In this document: piece by piece, positions 7,159 to 15,364 of the stretch | Layout of the letters: every line of letters begins with the position of its first letter | Numbering within the stretch: position 1 is the stretch's first letter | Origin: Paracoccaceae bacterium | GTDB taxonomy: Bacteria > Pseudomonadota > Alphaproteobacteria > Rhodobacterales > Rhodobacteraceae | DNA: 52,441 bases | Assembly: GCA_024640245.1 (NCBI GenBank) | Contig: JAHEFH010000004.1 | Coordinates: 1 to 52,441, forward strand | Reading direction: 5' to 3' | The notes under the pieces: generated by a model | What the model saw: only the letters and a program-made list of their open reading frames with translations | What the model was told of the DNA's origin: nothing | The model's database searches: none | Position numbers and translations under genes: made by a program

Positions 7159-7204
7159 GTGTTAACTGCCAAACAGGTCGCGCCACTTGCCGGAGCAGCA
7201 TGCA

Positions 7205-9667
7205 ATGAAGATCGACCGAATTACCGGAAAGAAATGCCTTGATAGCGTGAAGGCCCTTCCCACTCCGGAAAAGCGCATCATCCTGTTTGCGGATTTCCTG
7301 CCATCCGAAACAGATATCGGTATTGCGGCTTGCGATCTTGTAGTGGCCGCAGAAGCGTCGGGGGTAGACATTACGTCGGCAACGTTCGCCGGCGAATCGT
7401 TCGCACAGGTTGCACTTTCCTGCCGGACGCCGATGCATTTCGACCGGGCCGCAAAAAGCATTGCGCGGATGGACTTGCCCGCCGCCGCAGCGGTGGTCAT
7501 CATTCTGGACAGCTTCATGCGGGCCGAAGTTCAATCCACGACGCGCTTCCGCAGGGTCAAGGAAAGACGGCGGATGCTTCTGCTGTTGGCCGAGATACTG
7601 CGCCAGAGACCGGATGCGATACTTTTCGCGTCCGGCAGTATCGAACTTTGCTACCTGACGGCGGCGCGGATACTTTCGGCTGTGAAATCCGGAGAGTTTC
7701 ATCGGCCTGTAATTCGGCAACTTTCGGAGTTTCTGGACGGGAAACTTGCGTGCGATATCGGGCTGTTACCAACGGCGTCAAATCCCGAAGATAGGTATCG
7801 CCTATTGCAGTGGCACTCCGGCCTCGGCCCGCGCCGGATGACTTTGCAGACCCTGCTCACACAGGCCAAGACCTCGAACCACGAGGCGGACCTGCGCTTT
7901 CTATTCAAGGTAGCTTCAACCGCCGAGCTGAAAAATCACCCGACAATCCGTTGGCTGCGCTCCGAATTGGCCTGGCAACGCGAAGTGCACGAGTGCCCGG
8001 GACAGCACCGGATGCTGGAAAAAGCGCAGGCCTTGGCGCCGGAGGCCGAGCGATTTAATCTGCCGATCACGCAGTACATGATGCATTTGCACAAAATCCT
8101 GCAATTGGAGCGTGAATTTCCGCTAGCGACCAGATCGCAAGCACAGACCTACCTGAACTGGTACCAAAAACGCTGTTTCGAGCGGGTTCCTGCCCGCTGG
8201 GTTCCTGCCCTGCCTGCGAAGCTCCTCAACACAGTAAGCGACGGCAGAGAATCGCACACCAGAGCCGAACGGGCCCAGCGGATATTGTTGGCGGTCCTGG
8301 AGTCGACCCCGAAATCGGAGGGCTTCGACACGGAGATGCTTGCATACCTTTCCGGCAATCCCGCAGGCATCGGTCCTTCGCGATTTGCCATTCTGCTCGC
8401 CGCTCTGTGCCAAGTGCCCGTCCGGTTAAACAACGACAAACCAGTCTGGAAGTCGGTCGAAATCCGCGACTGGTTCCAAGGGACTGCCTGTCGCCTTCTG
8501 CCGGGATGCCGGCAATTTTCACCGTTGCAAAAGCGAGCGGAACCAAGCCGCAAAACATTCACCATTTACGGAATAGCTGACGGCAAAACCGGACTGGGCG
8601 CCAACACGGTCATGGCGAAGAAAATGGCCGAAATTATGAATTTACCGTTTATTATCCGAGATTTAAAATCACTTGAACCGACACGGAACGCGTTGCCGCC
8701 CGCCGGCGGTTCAAGGACAATGCAGCGCGATGTCATCCTGCACCATGTCAATGCCGACCGGATTCCCCTACACGTCATGTCTCCCGAACTGGCGCGGCGA
8801 AATGATACGTTTCACATCGGATTTCTGCTTTGGGAACTCGACCGAATTCCGCAGGCGCACCGGTTGGGGATCGGGATGCTGGACGAAATCTGGGCACCCA
8901 GCCGGTTCGTTGCCAACATTTATTCAGGCCAGACTTCGACCCCGGTGCATCTGGTCAAAAAGGGACTGACCGACCTTGAAGGGTTGCAGAAAATCTCCGC
9001 GGCCGGCCGCAAGGAAACCGCCCGCTTCACCGCAATGGTCTGCTTCGATTTCCATTCCTCTGTCGAGCGCAAGAATCCTTTGGCCGCGGTACGGGCCTTC
9101 CAGATCGCATTTCCGAAGCGCAGCCACGGCGACTGCCGCCTGATCGTCAAGACAACACCTACCAGTTGCGGACATTGGGGCGACCCAGTGGATCAGATGG
9201 GACAGATCAGAAGGTTGGCGGACAAGGACTCGCGCATCGAAATCATCGAGGGGTTCGTCAGCCAGTCCGACCTGTGGCAGATGATGAATTCCGCCGACTG
9301 CCTTCTGAGCACGCATCGAGCAGAGGGTTTCGGCTATATTCCTGCCTACGCGCTCGCACTGGGAAAACCTCTGGTAACAACGGATTATGGCGGGCAGAGA
9401 GATTTCTGCGACCTCCGCACAAGCTTTCCGGTTGCTGCACCGCTTGTGGAAGTACCCGAAGGCCACGCGCTTTATTCACTGGCAGGTGCAAAATGGGCGG
9501 ATATCTCGCCAGATGCCGTCGCGGCCTCCCTGCGGCAGGTTTATGGCGATCCGGAGATGGCCGCGGCACGTGCGCGTTGCGGGCAGCGCTTGCTGCAGAA
9601 GGACTATTCCATGGCGGCCTACTCAGCGCGCTGTCGGCAACGTCTGGAACAGGTCGGGGCGCTGTAG
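7205..9667 (+). CDS. Large GT4-like glycosyltransferase with long N-terminal region
   Basis: An 820-aa protein. Residues ~453-820 read as a GT-B (family 4-like) glycosyltransferase: TIYGIADGKTGLGANT near 453, a middle linker, then the nucleotide-sugar half with HRAEGFGYIPAYALALGKP from residue 704 and TTDYGGQRDF. The first Glu of the EX7E motif is E707, but the second position is Tyr. Residues 1-450 are not recognised. They contain no membrane helix, and the stretch ~195-330 is helix-rich with repeat-like character. The ATG at 7205 was chosen because GGAG lies nine bases upstream; an upstream TTG at 7187 is in frame. It is preceded by a CtrA-type site, which would fit a surface-polysaccharide role. 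Sugar and acceptor are unknown. Confidence 0.75.
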   Translation: MKIDRITGKKCLDSVKALPTPEKRIILFADFLPSETDIGIAACDLVVAAEASGVDITSATFAGESFAQVALSCRTPMHFDRAAKSIARMDLPAAAAVVIILDSFMRAEVQSTTRFRRVKERRRMLLLLAEILRQRPDAILFASGSIELCYLTAARILSAVKSGEFHRPVIRQLSEFLDGKLACDIGLLPTASNPEDRYRLLQWHSGLGPRRMTLQTLLTQAKTSNHEADLRFLFKVASTAELKNHPTIRWLRSELAWQREVHECPGQHRMLEKAQALAPEAERFNLPITQYMMHLHKILQLEREFPLATRSQAQTYLNWYQKRCFERVPARWVPALPAKLLNTVSDGRESHTRAERAQRILLAVLESTPKSEGFDTEMLAYLSGNPAGIGPSRFAILLAALCQVPVRLNNDKPVWKSVEIRDWFQGTACRLLPGCRQFSPLQKRAEPSRKTFTIYGIADGKTGLGANTVMAKKMAEIMNLPFIIRDLKSLEPTRNALPPAGGSRTMQRDVILHHVNADRIPLHVMSPELARRNDTFHIGFLLWELDRIPQAHRLGIGMLDEIWAPSRFVANIYSGQTSTPVHLVKKGLTDLEGLQKISAAGRKETARFTAMVCFDFHSSVERKNPLAAVRAFQIAFPKRSHGDCRLIVKTTPTSCGHWGDPVDQMGQIRRLADKDSRIEIIEGFVSQSDLWQMMNSADCLLSTHRAEGFGYIPAYALALGKPLVTTDYGGQRDFCDLRTSFPVAAPLVEVPEGHALYSLAGAKWADISPDAVAASLRQVYGDPEMAAARARCGQRLLQKDYSMAAYSARCRQRLEQVGAL

Positions 9668-10539: not shown

Positions 10540-11577
10540 CTAGAGATGTCCCTCCGGTTTCGCCAATGCCTGGACGATTGCGAAACCGCGCCCTTTATCC
10601 TTTGCTGCATACAACAGTTTGTCCGCTTCCTCGAGAATATAATGAGGATCCAGCGTCCAGGTTCTGTCGAACAACACGCCTCCGATGCTGGCCCCCACCT
10701 GGCAACTGAAGTTTCCAAAAATGACAGGCGTCGAAATCTTTTCGATCAGGCGGTCAGCCAGCGTCTGTATCTGGGCTATATTGTCCACATGCCCCAGAAC
10801 TGCGACGAATTCGTCACCTCCGAGCCTCGCCAGAACATCGTCGGGACGGGTTTCAACCTGTAAAACCCTGGCAACCTCCTGCAAAACAGCGTCGCCGGCC
10901 GAGTGTCCAAATGCATCGTTTATGTTTTTGAACTTATCCAGATCTATGTGGAGCAAAGCGAAGCTCGACGACTCCCGCGCCTGCAACCGTTGCAGATAAT
11001 CTGCCAGCAAACGCCGGTTCCCAAGTCCGGTGAGAGGATCGCGCGACGCCCGCGCTTCTGCCGAACGCTTGGCGCCGTCCAATCGCTGGTTAAGGCGCAC
11101 CGACTCGTTCAAGAGAAAAGACTGCATTTCTGTCATGCACAGCAGTTCCGCCGTCGGGTCGGAGGACGAGAAATCTGACGCTTTGAGACCGAACCTGTTG
11201 ACGACCCCGTACAGGTTCGGCCCGAGTCCGAAATTCAGCAAATAGCCTTGCTTGTCGGGTAAAGTGACACAATTTCCACGCAGTCCGCCAACGCTGCCGT
11301 TTATCAGGTGTGCCTTAAGGACAGACCCAGTATTGGCTGCGAGATCATCAATTGTTGCCAGAGGCTTGTTCTGCCGGAAAACCAGAACCTTGAACAAGTT
11401 CCGCCCGACAAAGGATTTGCGTTCCTGGAACTTACGGAATGTGGGACCAACGTGCAAAATCTGCCCATCCAACCCGACCAAGATGTGCATCGGCATGAAA
11501 CTGTCGATCATGCTGGTCGAAAACCGCAAATAATTTTCGTTCTGCGCCACGTCCAGCGCCAGTGACCCCGCTCTCAT
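10540..11577 (-). CDS. HNOBA-GGDEF diguanylate cyclase
   Basis: A 345-aa predicted cytoplasmic diguanylate cyclase. Residues ~25-150 resemble the H-NOX-associated (HNOBA, PAS-like) domain: FMPMHILVGLDGQILHVGPT, then GRNLFKVLVFRQNKP and a beta-rich half. A helical, probably coiled-coil linker (~145-178) leads to a GGDEF domain (PLTGLGNRR from 181). The active-site GGDEF at 253-257 is intact, and an inhibitory-site RxxD (RPDD, 244-247) stands the usual five residues before it, so it should make c-di-GMP and be product-inhibited. Its start overlaps the upstream H-NOX gene by 4 bp, so the two are translationally coupled and presumably act as a sensor-output pair. Confidence 0.88.
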   Translation of the reverse strand: MRAGSLALDVAQNENYLRFSTSMIDSFMPMHILVGLDGQILHVGPTFRKFQERKSFVGRNLFKVLVFRQNKPLATIDDLAANTGSVLKAHLINGSVGGLRGNCVTLPDKQGYLLNFGLGPNLYGVVNRFGLKASDFSSSDPTAELLCMTEMQSFLLNESVRLNQRLDGAKRSAEARASRDPLTGLGNRRLLADYLQRLQARESSSFALLHIDLDKFKNINDAFGHSAGDAVLQEVARVLQVETRPDDVLARLGGDEFVAVLGHVDNIAQIQTLADRLIEKISTPVIFGNFSCQVGASIGGVLFDRTWTLDPHYILEEADKLLYAAKDKGRGFAIVQALAKPEGHL

Positions 11578-12167
11578 GTTACGACCAACCTCCGTATTTC
11601 CGCGGGACGCTGCCAGCGTTCTTCATGCAACCTGATATCGAACCTGTCGCGCTGCACGGGTCCCTTCAATTTTGTATGATGCTCTATCGTGACGAGCGCC
11701 CCATAGTCATCAGCCATCGCCCGCAAAAGCCCTAACAGCACTGGGGCATATCCCGGCATCGCATACTCGCAGTGCACTGCGTAAAGATTGCCGGGCCGCG
11801 CTTCCAAGTGCAGTTTGGGAACTTCCAGAAACGGCATGGAAACTTTGAACCGGGCACTGAAATCTTCCAGAGACATCAGGAAATCCACATAGGTTTCGCC
11901 CCCGAACCGCAGAAGCCTGCGGATGCCCGACAACCGCTCATCGGTGACAACATAAGTTCCGAAATCCTCTAGAATTTCTTCACTCGTACGTTCCAGAACG
12001 ACGCTGAGGGTCTCCAGCAAACGCTTGGTCACGTCGTTTTCGTAGTGGACAAGGGTTTCAAAGGAATAAAAAGGAAAGTTTGCCGCAACGCAGGTTTCTT
12101 CCCACTTTCTGGCCCCGTAAAAATCGTGCACGAAGCTCTGCAAGCCCCGATTTATAAATCCATGCAT
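11574..12167 (-). CDS. H-NOX domain protein lacking the heme ligand
   Basis: A 197-aa H-NOX fold protein. The N-terminus MHGFINRGLQSFVHDFYGAR and the later DFLMSLED and LLGLLRAMAD segments match the family. Aligned without gaps to the bacterial heme-binding form (NFLMMMDEVH), the proximal heme histidine is replaced by Ser104. The YxSxR heme-propionate motif is also absent; the equivalent stretch is HCEYAMPG (132-139). Canonical H-NOX proteins bind NO or O2 through that heme, so this one probably does not. The start at 12167 has GGGGG six bases upstream and gives the usual family N-terminus. It forms a two-gene operon with the HNOBA-GGDEF protein. Confidence 0.85.
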   Translation of the reverse strand: MHGFINRGLQSFVHDFYGARKWEETCVAANFPFYSFETLVHYENDVTKRLLETLSVVLERTSEEILEDFGTYVVTDERLSGIRRLLRFGGETYVDFLMSLEDFSARFKVSMPFLEVPKLHLEARPGNLYAVHCEYAMPGYAPVLLGLLRAMADDYGALVTIEHHTKLKGPVQRDRFDIRLHEERWQRPAEIRRLVVT

Positions 12168-13879: not shown

Positions 13880-13984
13880 CTGCAAAGCCAAACTCCTAAA
13901 AGTGTCCCGACTTATAGTAAGGATTCATTAACCTAGATTGTGTTCACTGGCGATGCGCAAAACAGAAGCACCCAGGGGTATATC

Positions 13985-15364
13985 TTGCCAGGCCGGATTC
14001 TCGTTATCGACCCTGTTAACACCAATCGGATGGTTCTGAAAACCCGCCTGCTGTCAGAGTATTATGACGTAGACCTTTGCGAGGATGCCGCGTCAGGATG
14101 GGCAAGTATCCTGCGGGATCCGCCAGACACGGTGCTGGTGAACTGCACCCTGCCGGATGCCAATGGTTACGGCTTTTGCGCCAAGATCAAGTCGCACCCG
14201 GAAACTGCTCACATTCCAGTGGTTCTTATCGCTTCCGCGAGCGCGGACATCAGTTGGGCCAAAGCGTATTCCAGCTTCGCCGACGACATCCATCAACTGC
14301 CGCTGGATTTTCCGCTGCTTGTACCGCGCCTGCAAAGCCTGTTGCGCGCAAAGGCTTCTCTGGACGAATTGCGCCTGCGCAACCAGACCAGCGAGGATAT
14401 CGGTCTGGCCGAACCCAAATCTTTTCTCGGAACGGTATCCTTGCGAAGGGTTTCCGTTGCTGTCGTTGGAAGTACAGCCGACGTCCGCACACGAATGATC
14501 TCTGCCTTGCGCACAATTCTCGACGCCGAAGTAGTCGACCTTGGACGCGACTGGGCCGGAGCGCTCGGCTGCACGCAGGAAACGGTGGTTGTTCTGGGTC
14601 AGGGACAAGACAGGTCCGAGGCATTACGACTGATCGCCCGCCTGCGCTCCAACCGCGCCAGTCGCTTCGTATCCCTGCTGTTTTCCGGCGGACCGGACGG
14701 CATCGAGATGGCTGAACGCGCACTTTCGCTTGGCGCCAATGATGCGTTCTATGGCGCGATCGACGATTATGCGCTGGCCGCACGGGTACGCGCCGTCAAC
14801 AATCACGCCATGCTGGCCAATATGCTGCGCGAAAACATGAACAACAATCTGCGGTTGGCCATGGTGGACCCTTTGACCGGGCTTTTTAACCGCCGCTATG
14901 CGGAGCAATATCTAAGAAAGGCGGTTACCCGCGCCGCGGACACCGGTCGCAACCTGTTCGTGATGATGCTCGATCTGGATAATTTCAAAACAGTTAACGA
15001 CCTGCACGGACATTCCGCAGGCGACAAGGTCCTGAAATCCATGGCCGAACGGTTGCAGGGCAACCTGCGTGGTCTTGACCTGGTGGCACGCGTCGGTGGC
15101 GAGGAATTTCTGGTGGTTCTTGCCGATATCTCGAAAGGACGCGCCCTGGATATCGCACAGCGCATCCGTTCGGTCATCGCCAATTCGGCTTTCGATGTCA
15201 GAAACGGGTGCCCCCCCGTCCCTGTTACAATCAGCATCGGCATCGCACAGGCCGACCCAGGGAAAAGCAGCGAGGCTAAATTGCTCGCGGCAGCGGATCA
15301 GGCGCTCTATGAATCCAAAAACCTCGGCCGGAACACCGTTACATTTGCCGCAGAAGCCGCCTAG
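13985..15364 (+). CDS. pleD: PleD-type diguanylate cyclase with degenerate receiver domains
   Basis: A 459-aa protein with the PleD order REC1 (1-120), REC2 (~150-275) and GGDEF (~295-459), collinear with Caulobacter PleD. The cyclase motif GGEEF is at 371-375 with an RxxD inhibitory site (RGLD, 362-365), so catalysis looks intact. REC1 is unusual. The acidic pair is D9-P10 instead of DD, the phosphoacceptor Asp53 is Asn (LVNCTLPD), and the conserved Lys is Leu. REC2 also lacks receiver acidic residues. The TTG at 13985 was chosen because AGGGG lies six bases upstream and the protein then begins exactly like PleD (LPGRILVID); an upstream GTG at 13940 is in frame. Confidence 0.9.
   Translation: MPGRILVIDPVNTNRMVLKTRLLSEYYDVDLCEDAASGWASILRDPPDTVLVNCTLPDANGYGFCAKIKSHPETAHIPVVLIASASADISWAKAYSSFADDIHQLPLDFPLLVPRLQSLLRAKASLDELRLRNQTSEDIGLAEPKSFLGTVSLRRVSVAVVGSTADVRTRMISALRTILDAEVVDLGRDWAGALGCTQETVVVLGQGQDRSEALRLIARLRSNRASRFVSLLFSGGPDGIEMAERALSLGANDAFYGAIDDYALAARVRAVNNHAMLANMLRENMNNNLRLAMVDPLTGLFNRRYAEQYLRKAVTRAADTGRNLFVMMLDLDNFKTVNDLHGHSAGDKVLKSMAERLQGNLRGLDLVARVGGEEFLVVLADISKGRALDIAQRIRSVIANSAFDVRNGCPPVPVTISIGIAQADPGKSSEAKLLAAADQALYESKNLGRNTVTFAAEAA

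Follow-up and report, generated by a model that had tools for sequence, protein, structure and literature searches.

In heme-containing H-NOX proteins, action on the partner begins once NO has broken the bond between the iron and the proximal histidine (PMC12329717; PMC7108781). The parts that move during H-NOX signalling are described as a pair of hinge glycines together with a proline on the proximal side (PMC7108781). Section 14 of the same paper compares the V. cholerae H-NOX with 598 relatives and finds the proximal His in all of them, which implies that this set contained no sequences of the His-less clade considered here. Such sequences had been described elsewhere. The proximal His is absent from the H-NOX proteins of P. 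denitrificans and R. sphaeroides, as was noted by 2017 (PMC5588039), and section 10 of PMC8738867 reports that less than 10% of Group 5 H-NOX proteins have this residue while most have Pro, and asks how the His-less members could sense NO or anything at all. In P. denitrificans, deletion of hnoX led to less biofilm and a double cyclase mutant formed more; the mutants were taken to indicate that H-NOX inhibits the cyclase DgcA (PMC5588039). Association of an H-NOX with a c-di-GMP enzyme, as in the locus presented below, is also known from D. shibae (H-NOX/Dgc1), Shewanella woodyi and Legionella (Hnox1). These proteins, however, reportedly contain heme and respond to NO (PMC8846402), whereas the one studied here is devoid of both heme motifs.

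We analysed a 52,441-nucleotide stretch of DNA from a Paracoccaceae bacterium, referred to as the window. Its minus strand carries an hnoX-like gene at 11574..12167, read without interruption from 12167 to 11574 (197 codons), the product of which was recognized as an HNOB/H-NOX fold by Pfam, phmmer and a family profile. Pfam HNOB (PF07700) matched residues 2-163 over the whole length of the profile (1-163/163) with 78.9 bits (E 5.2e-22), above the curated cut-off of 25.5 bits. The window's genome (assembly of 2.86 Mb, completeness 96%) yielded no other HNOB gene. In a phmmer search against PDB sequences, residues 1-178 aligned to residues 1-179 of Alr2278, the Nostoc H-NOX (4iae, E 1.5e-16), with a single one-residue gap near residue 36 and a gap-free heme region. 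There, FLMSLEDFSARFKVSMP aligned on FMENLDNLHARVGLSFP, so that Ser104 (codon AGT, 11856..11858, minus strand) falls on His105, the proximal heme ligand, and C-E-Y-A-M (codons 133-137, 11757..11771, minus strand) stood on YQSTR, the Y-x-S-x-R propionate motif. A profile of 58 relatives, window included, gave the identical register on Alr2278 (E 3e-31). A preliminary description of this DNA had proposed both the Ser at the ligand position and the loss of YxSxR, and both are borne out by these alignments.

The same description had held that the remainder of the fold was kept. This agrees with the full-length HNOB match and with the retention, in the window protein, of 39 of the 40 columns that are conserved at ≥90% in the 176-member clade described below. 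The hinge glycines of H-NOX, which we take to be Gly71 and Gly147 of Alr2278, are present as Gly70 (11958..11960, minus strand) and Gly146 (11730..11732, minus strand), and the conserved proximal heme-contact proline, presumably Pro118 of Alr2278, as Pro117 (11817..11819, minus strand). By alignment, all three were invariant in the clade, 100% in His-bearing and His-less members alike. This invariance would suit a protein that still senses NO through heme, bound by a different ligand or weakly without one, and the responsiveness of P. denitrificans biofilm to NO (PMC5588039) points in the same direction. We nevertheless regard such a heme sensor as improbable. His, Cys and Tyr are all absent from residues 95-114 of the window protein, YxSxR is gone, and eleven different residues occupy the proximal site in the clade, mostly Pro, which offers no side-chain ligation of the iron. 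Moreover, NO derived from NirS stimulates biofilm in hnoX mutants of P. denitrificans too (PMC5588039).

As for a substitute proximal ligand within residues 95-114, the only candidates were Met98, Met111 and Lys108. Position 98, Met in the window protein, is His in 93 of the 151 His-less clade members, and the idea that another residue generally stands in for the proximal ligand was rejected.

The relatives came from several scans. HNOB was found in 23 of 33 genomes of the window's genus and in 223 of 296 genomes of its family, about 195 of the latter having one match as counted by eye among the matches listed. From the family scan, 100 regions were chosen in score order from the lower-scoring rows among the matches listed; a scan of named genomes gave 281 relatives of the window, of which the best 80 were retained. 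Titles in the named scan gave Rhodobacteraceae, Rhodobacterales or genera that we assume to be members of these, and Alphaproteobacteria only in one case. Altogether, 240 loci yielded 216 unique sequences for the tree. The window protein fell into a Rhodobacteraceae clade of 176 sequences (SH-aLRT 99) and, inside it, into a genus-level, Amylibacter-like subclade of 23 sequences (support 100), the inner branching of which is unsettled.

At the proximal site, His was present in 25 of the 176 clade members and another residue in 151 (P 113, Q 11, Y 9, R 5, A 4, S 3, N 3, E 1, T 1, K 1), proportions that are no unbiased estimate of the His fraction because loci were picked by score. That the absence of His is peculiar to this gene was not supported: it prevails in the clade as sampled and is already in print. 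Joint loss of His and YxSxR was not supported either. YxSxR was found in none of the 176 clade members, the 25 with His included, as opposed to 38 of the 40 rows from outside the clade. A class-wide scan with the clade profile gave matching proteins in 12 of 387 genomes: in the six genomes outside the family all had His and YxSxR, and in the six inside it the proximal residues were S, P, P, P, P and, in one case, H together with YYSER.

By its shared features, the clade matches Group 5 (seed Pden_3719 of P. denitrificans). Both have an HNOB fold with His mostly missing, and in Group 5, as in the window, the gene overlaps that of a GGDEF protein with a non-catalytic N-terminal domain (PMC8738867; PMC5588039). 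As in Group 5, no conserved set of cysteines was found, the best Cys column reaching 85 of the 151 His-less members. Where Group 5 has mostly Pro at the proximal site (PMC8738867), the window has Ser, and its Amylibacter-like subclade holds relatives with His, Tyr, Gln or Asn. The window protein is thus a member, with an unusual Ser, of an H-NOX group that has been described but not explained.

Two observations on the proximal residue concern other sequences. Nine members of the genus subclade have Tyr at this position (L018, L021-L023, L027-L030 and L076); Tyr is able to ligate ferric heme in other proteins, and these members may not be heme-free. Outside the clade, among the H-NOX proteins with YxSxR, the proximal residue of one sequence (L142, G111:C4) is Gln, an isolated replacement of His.

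Since YxSxR is missing even in the His-bearing members of the clade, the propionate motif was probably lost ahead of the proximal ligand. The nearest row outside the clade, in a tree rooted on Alr2278 (support 88), was a protein with His, YYSER and a cyclase (L031); its position fits an ancestor that bound heme and was linked to a cyclase. By parsimony, the proximal site switched between His and another residue at least 15 times on the clade tree (14 on the larger tree) and its residue changed at least 38 times (35 on the larger tree), counts in which loss and gain are not distinguishable. Such frequent change is expected at a site that has been freed from its role as a ligand.

Loss of these motifs might also be the mark of a decaying gene heading for disappearance, and the rather long end branch of the window sequence (0.76 against a median of 0.37) could be taken in this sense. 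We hold decay to be very improbable given the intact frame, the start-stop coupling to the cyclase gene and the near-complete set of clade-conserved columns mentioned above. Furthermore, the His-less relatives are under purifying selection: dN/dS was 0.03-0.26 in His-less pairs more than 70% identical with finite dS, many of them with dS >1, values that come from related pairs because the window gene itself has no relative close enough. The earlier proposal that selection maintains the sensor fold is thereby supported.

The main rival to the reading that we favor below is that the protein is still a sensor, its empty heme pocket now serving a different ligand or a redox signal. We consider this rather unlikely, although several observations are in its favor: selection maintains the fold and the hinge in members without His; a clade-specific His2 occurs in 94-96% of members, at a position mostly occupied by Lys (87%) or Tyr (7%) in the other H-NOX rows; and the Tyr of YxSxR is replaced by Cys in 85 of the 151 His-less members, window included. 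His2, however, is equally conserved in members with the proximal His and is therefore no mark of a new pocket, and the Cys column is otherwise filled by Val (36), Ile, Leu, Ser, Thr, Tyr, Ala or Met. Among the columns listed, none was shown to change together with His, in a comparison that had no power with its four usable independent pairs.

Redox sensing is described for the zinc/Cys H-NOX of V. cholerae, which works without heme in vitro, as is proposed for the window protein, but which keeps the proximal His and a Cys motif where the window protein has neither (PMC7108781). With C26 and C133 as its only cysteines, the window protein lacks the V. cholerae-type set of three Cys plus His/Gln; a three-Cys motif is impossible, as the preliminary description had suspected in finding no evident zinc cysteines. 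This counts against the takeover of the pocket, and the zinc/redox version of it was rejected for want of cysteines.

The presumed partner is encoded by the adjacent diguanylate cyclase gene (10540..11577, minus strand, 345 aa, from ORF and Pfam). The hnoX stop and the cyclase start share the four nucleotides ATGA (11574..11577, minus strand), and the two genes are likely translationally coupled, which upholds the earlier view of an intact gene coupled to a cyclase. Pfam and motif matches place the GGDEF domain at 10588..11049 (minus strand), with its GGDEF signature and, upstream of it, the I-site RPDD. For the preceding part, approximately residues 18-172 (11062..11526, minus strand), the sequence family identifies an HNOBA/PAS domain with a signalling-helix region. 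The window cyclase alone scored below the cut-off against HNOBA (12 bits, E 0.15), and the assignment is made on family evidence: HNOBA matched at E ≤1 in 26 of 28 cyclase family members, window included (best 5.8e-9), and the family profile reached residues 209-384 of sGC beta1 (E 3.4e-7). It also matched the signal-transduction histidine kinase structures 2p04 (E 6.4e-6) and 2p08 (1.3e-5). Given this HNOBA/PAS assignment, H-NOX and cyclase together reproduce the domain order of sGC, distributed over two genes and with GGDEF as output.

The arrangement was general in the clade. A cyclase lay beside H-NOX in 172 of the 176 members, downstream on the same strand in 170 and fused to it in two (L012 and L015); the other four reached the end of their stretch. 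Of the 188 cyclase sequences, 170 from unique clade members and 18 duplicates, all had the GGDEF signature and 186 the RxxD I-site. Among the 80 named loci, 40 had, in the flanks retrieved, a gene like the HAD-type gene upstream of the window hnoX, and this recurrent neighbour is a hint that the locus was inherited vertically. The fusions L012 (= L061) and L015 (= L065), from two genomes of the window's genus, are single HNOB-HNOBA-GGDEF genes with an sGC-like layout.

Our preferred reading, to which we assign a probability of about 55%, is that the window protein, as a Group 5 member, would serve as a heme-free regulatory subunit dedicated to the adjacent cyclase and lower c-di-GMP synthesis by protein contact. 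The H-NOX fold, both hinge glycines and a set of clade-specific residues have been kept while the residues that hold the heme drifted away. H-NOX would dock on the HNOBA/PAS and helix region of the cyclase, a site suggested by the way in which the H-NOX domains of sGC do so, and the docked protein would lower c-di-GMP synthesis, a sign of action that we take from the published genetics of P. denitrificans. In heme H-NOX proteins it is the cleavage of the Fe-His bond by NO that leads to the form inhibiting the partner. Where no such bond tethers the fold, the simplest expectation is a resting state that is already inhibiting. Heme-free H-NOX would thus remain constitutively at, or near, the state that inhibits the partner, and inhibition might be tuned by the amount of H-NOX or by some other signal. 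A resting state of this kind fits the P. denitrificans mutants and would apply to the window protein by analogy. It is from the residues at the heme site that we infer the absence of heme.

Several points count against a heme-free subunit. Twenty-five of the 176 clade members retain His, and the window cyclase by itself matches HNOBA below the cut-off, as given above. The biofilm of P. denitrificans is stimulated by NO, and the authors retained a NO-sensing model (PMC5588039). In D. shibae, also a member of the Rhodobacteraceae, H-NOX is tabulated as a heme sensor the NO-bound form of which inhibits its cyclase (PMC8846402). Nor were conserved columns significantly concentrated where contact with the cyclase would be expected: in His-less members, 15 of 45 columns were conserved in the region corresponding to the sGC-type PAS contact (82-126) versus 26 of 120 (p 0.16), and the value of p 0.012 for 82-107 belongs to a range chosen after inspection of the data.

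In sGC, the order of H-NOX, HNOBA/PAS, helix and cyclase is the same as in the window pair, and the H-NOX domain of its alpha subunit is a heme-free module that has been kept, to which the window H-NOX may be likened (eLife.50634). In contrast to sGC, the pair is split into two genes, GGDEF stands for the guanylate cyclase domain, and a second, heme-bearing H-NOX was not found in the window's genome, which has one HNOB gene. A wider version of the heme-free reading would extend it to the whole clade, as a passage from gas sensor to obligate heme-free cyclase subunit, the counterpart of the sGC alpha H-NOX. The Amylibacter-like genus, with its His, Gln, Asn, Tyr and Ser, would then be in the midst of this change, the motif would have been lost before the ligand, and the pocket may answer to a new ligand. 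We put this forward as a tentative possibility, itself on the doubtful side.

On the question of NO as the signal, nitrite reductase was scored in 121 genomes with a typed clade member, with NirS counted as PF02239 above 300 bits and NirK as TIGR02376 over its cut-off. A 95-bit PF02239 fragment in G256 was left uncounted, G031 was typed via locus L076 by matching coordinates, and L142 and L146, which are outside the clade, were set aside. NirK or NirS was found in 11 of 22 genomes with His and in 30 of 99 without (Fisher p 0.087). This slight excess leaves some room for the improbable heme sensor, in that a NO role may persist in some members. For NirS alone, the figures were 9 of 22 and 18 of 99 (p 0.044). 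Outside the window's genus, nitrite reductase was present in 8 of 13 His versus 25 of 85 His-less genomes (p 0.03), while inside it (3 of 9 versus 5 of 14) there was no trend. With control for the tree, just three pairs were usable, and a link between His retention and nitrite reductase is unproven. The window's genome gave no match to NirK or NirS, which, like the absence of both from the matches in 69 of the 99 sampled His-less genomes, speaks for the heme-free reading. In view of these 69 genomes, caution is advisable before a His-less H-NOX gene is annotated as a NO sensor.

To what was known of the group, the present work adds the loss of YxSxR in His-bearing members, the at least 15 changes of His state, the invariant hinge glycines, the purifying selection and the HNOBA/PAS domain in the cyclase family. 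In the open-licence literature, we found no report of a mixture of ligand residues within a genus, of YxSxR loss before that of His, or of natural fusions. Relatives within one genus that have His, Gln, Asn, Tyr or Ser at a single site, each beside an HNOBA-GGDEF cyclase, make the fate of a sensor after loss of its cofactor directly testable.

The surroundings of the pair deserve a brief description. A second diguanylate cyclase, with receiver and GGDEF domains (PleD-like), is encoded on the plus strand at 13940-15364, some 2 kb away from hnoX and its cyclase; the genome has four GGDEF matches, two of them in the window. P. denitrificans likewise has one H-NOX-linked and one receiver-linked cyclase (PMC5588039). 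On the other side, a MmcB-like DNA repair protein gene (PF06319; 9712-10158, plus strand) adjoins the cyclase gene. The gene at 7187-9667 (plus strand) encodes a protein of 826 aa, in which a long N-terminal stretch that matches nothing in Pfam precedes a glycosyltransferase group 1 domain at the C-terminus.
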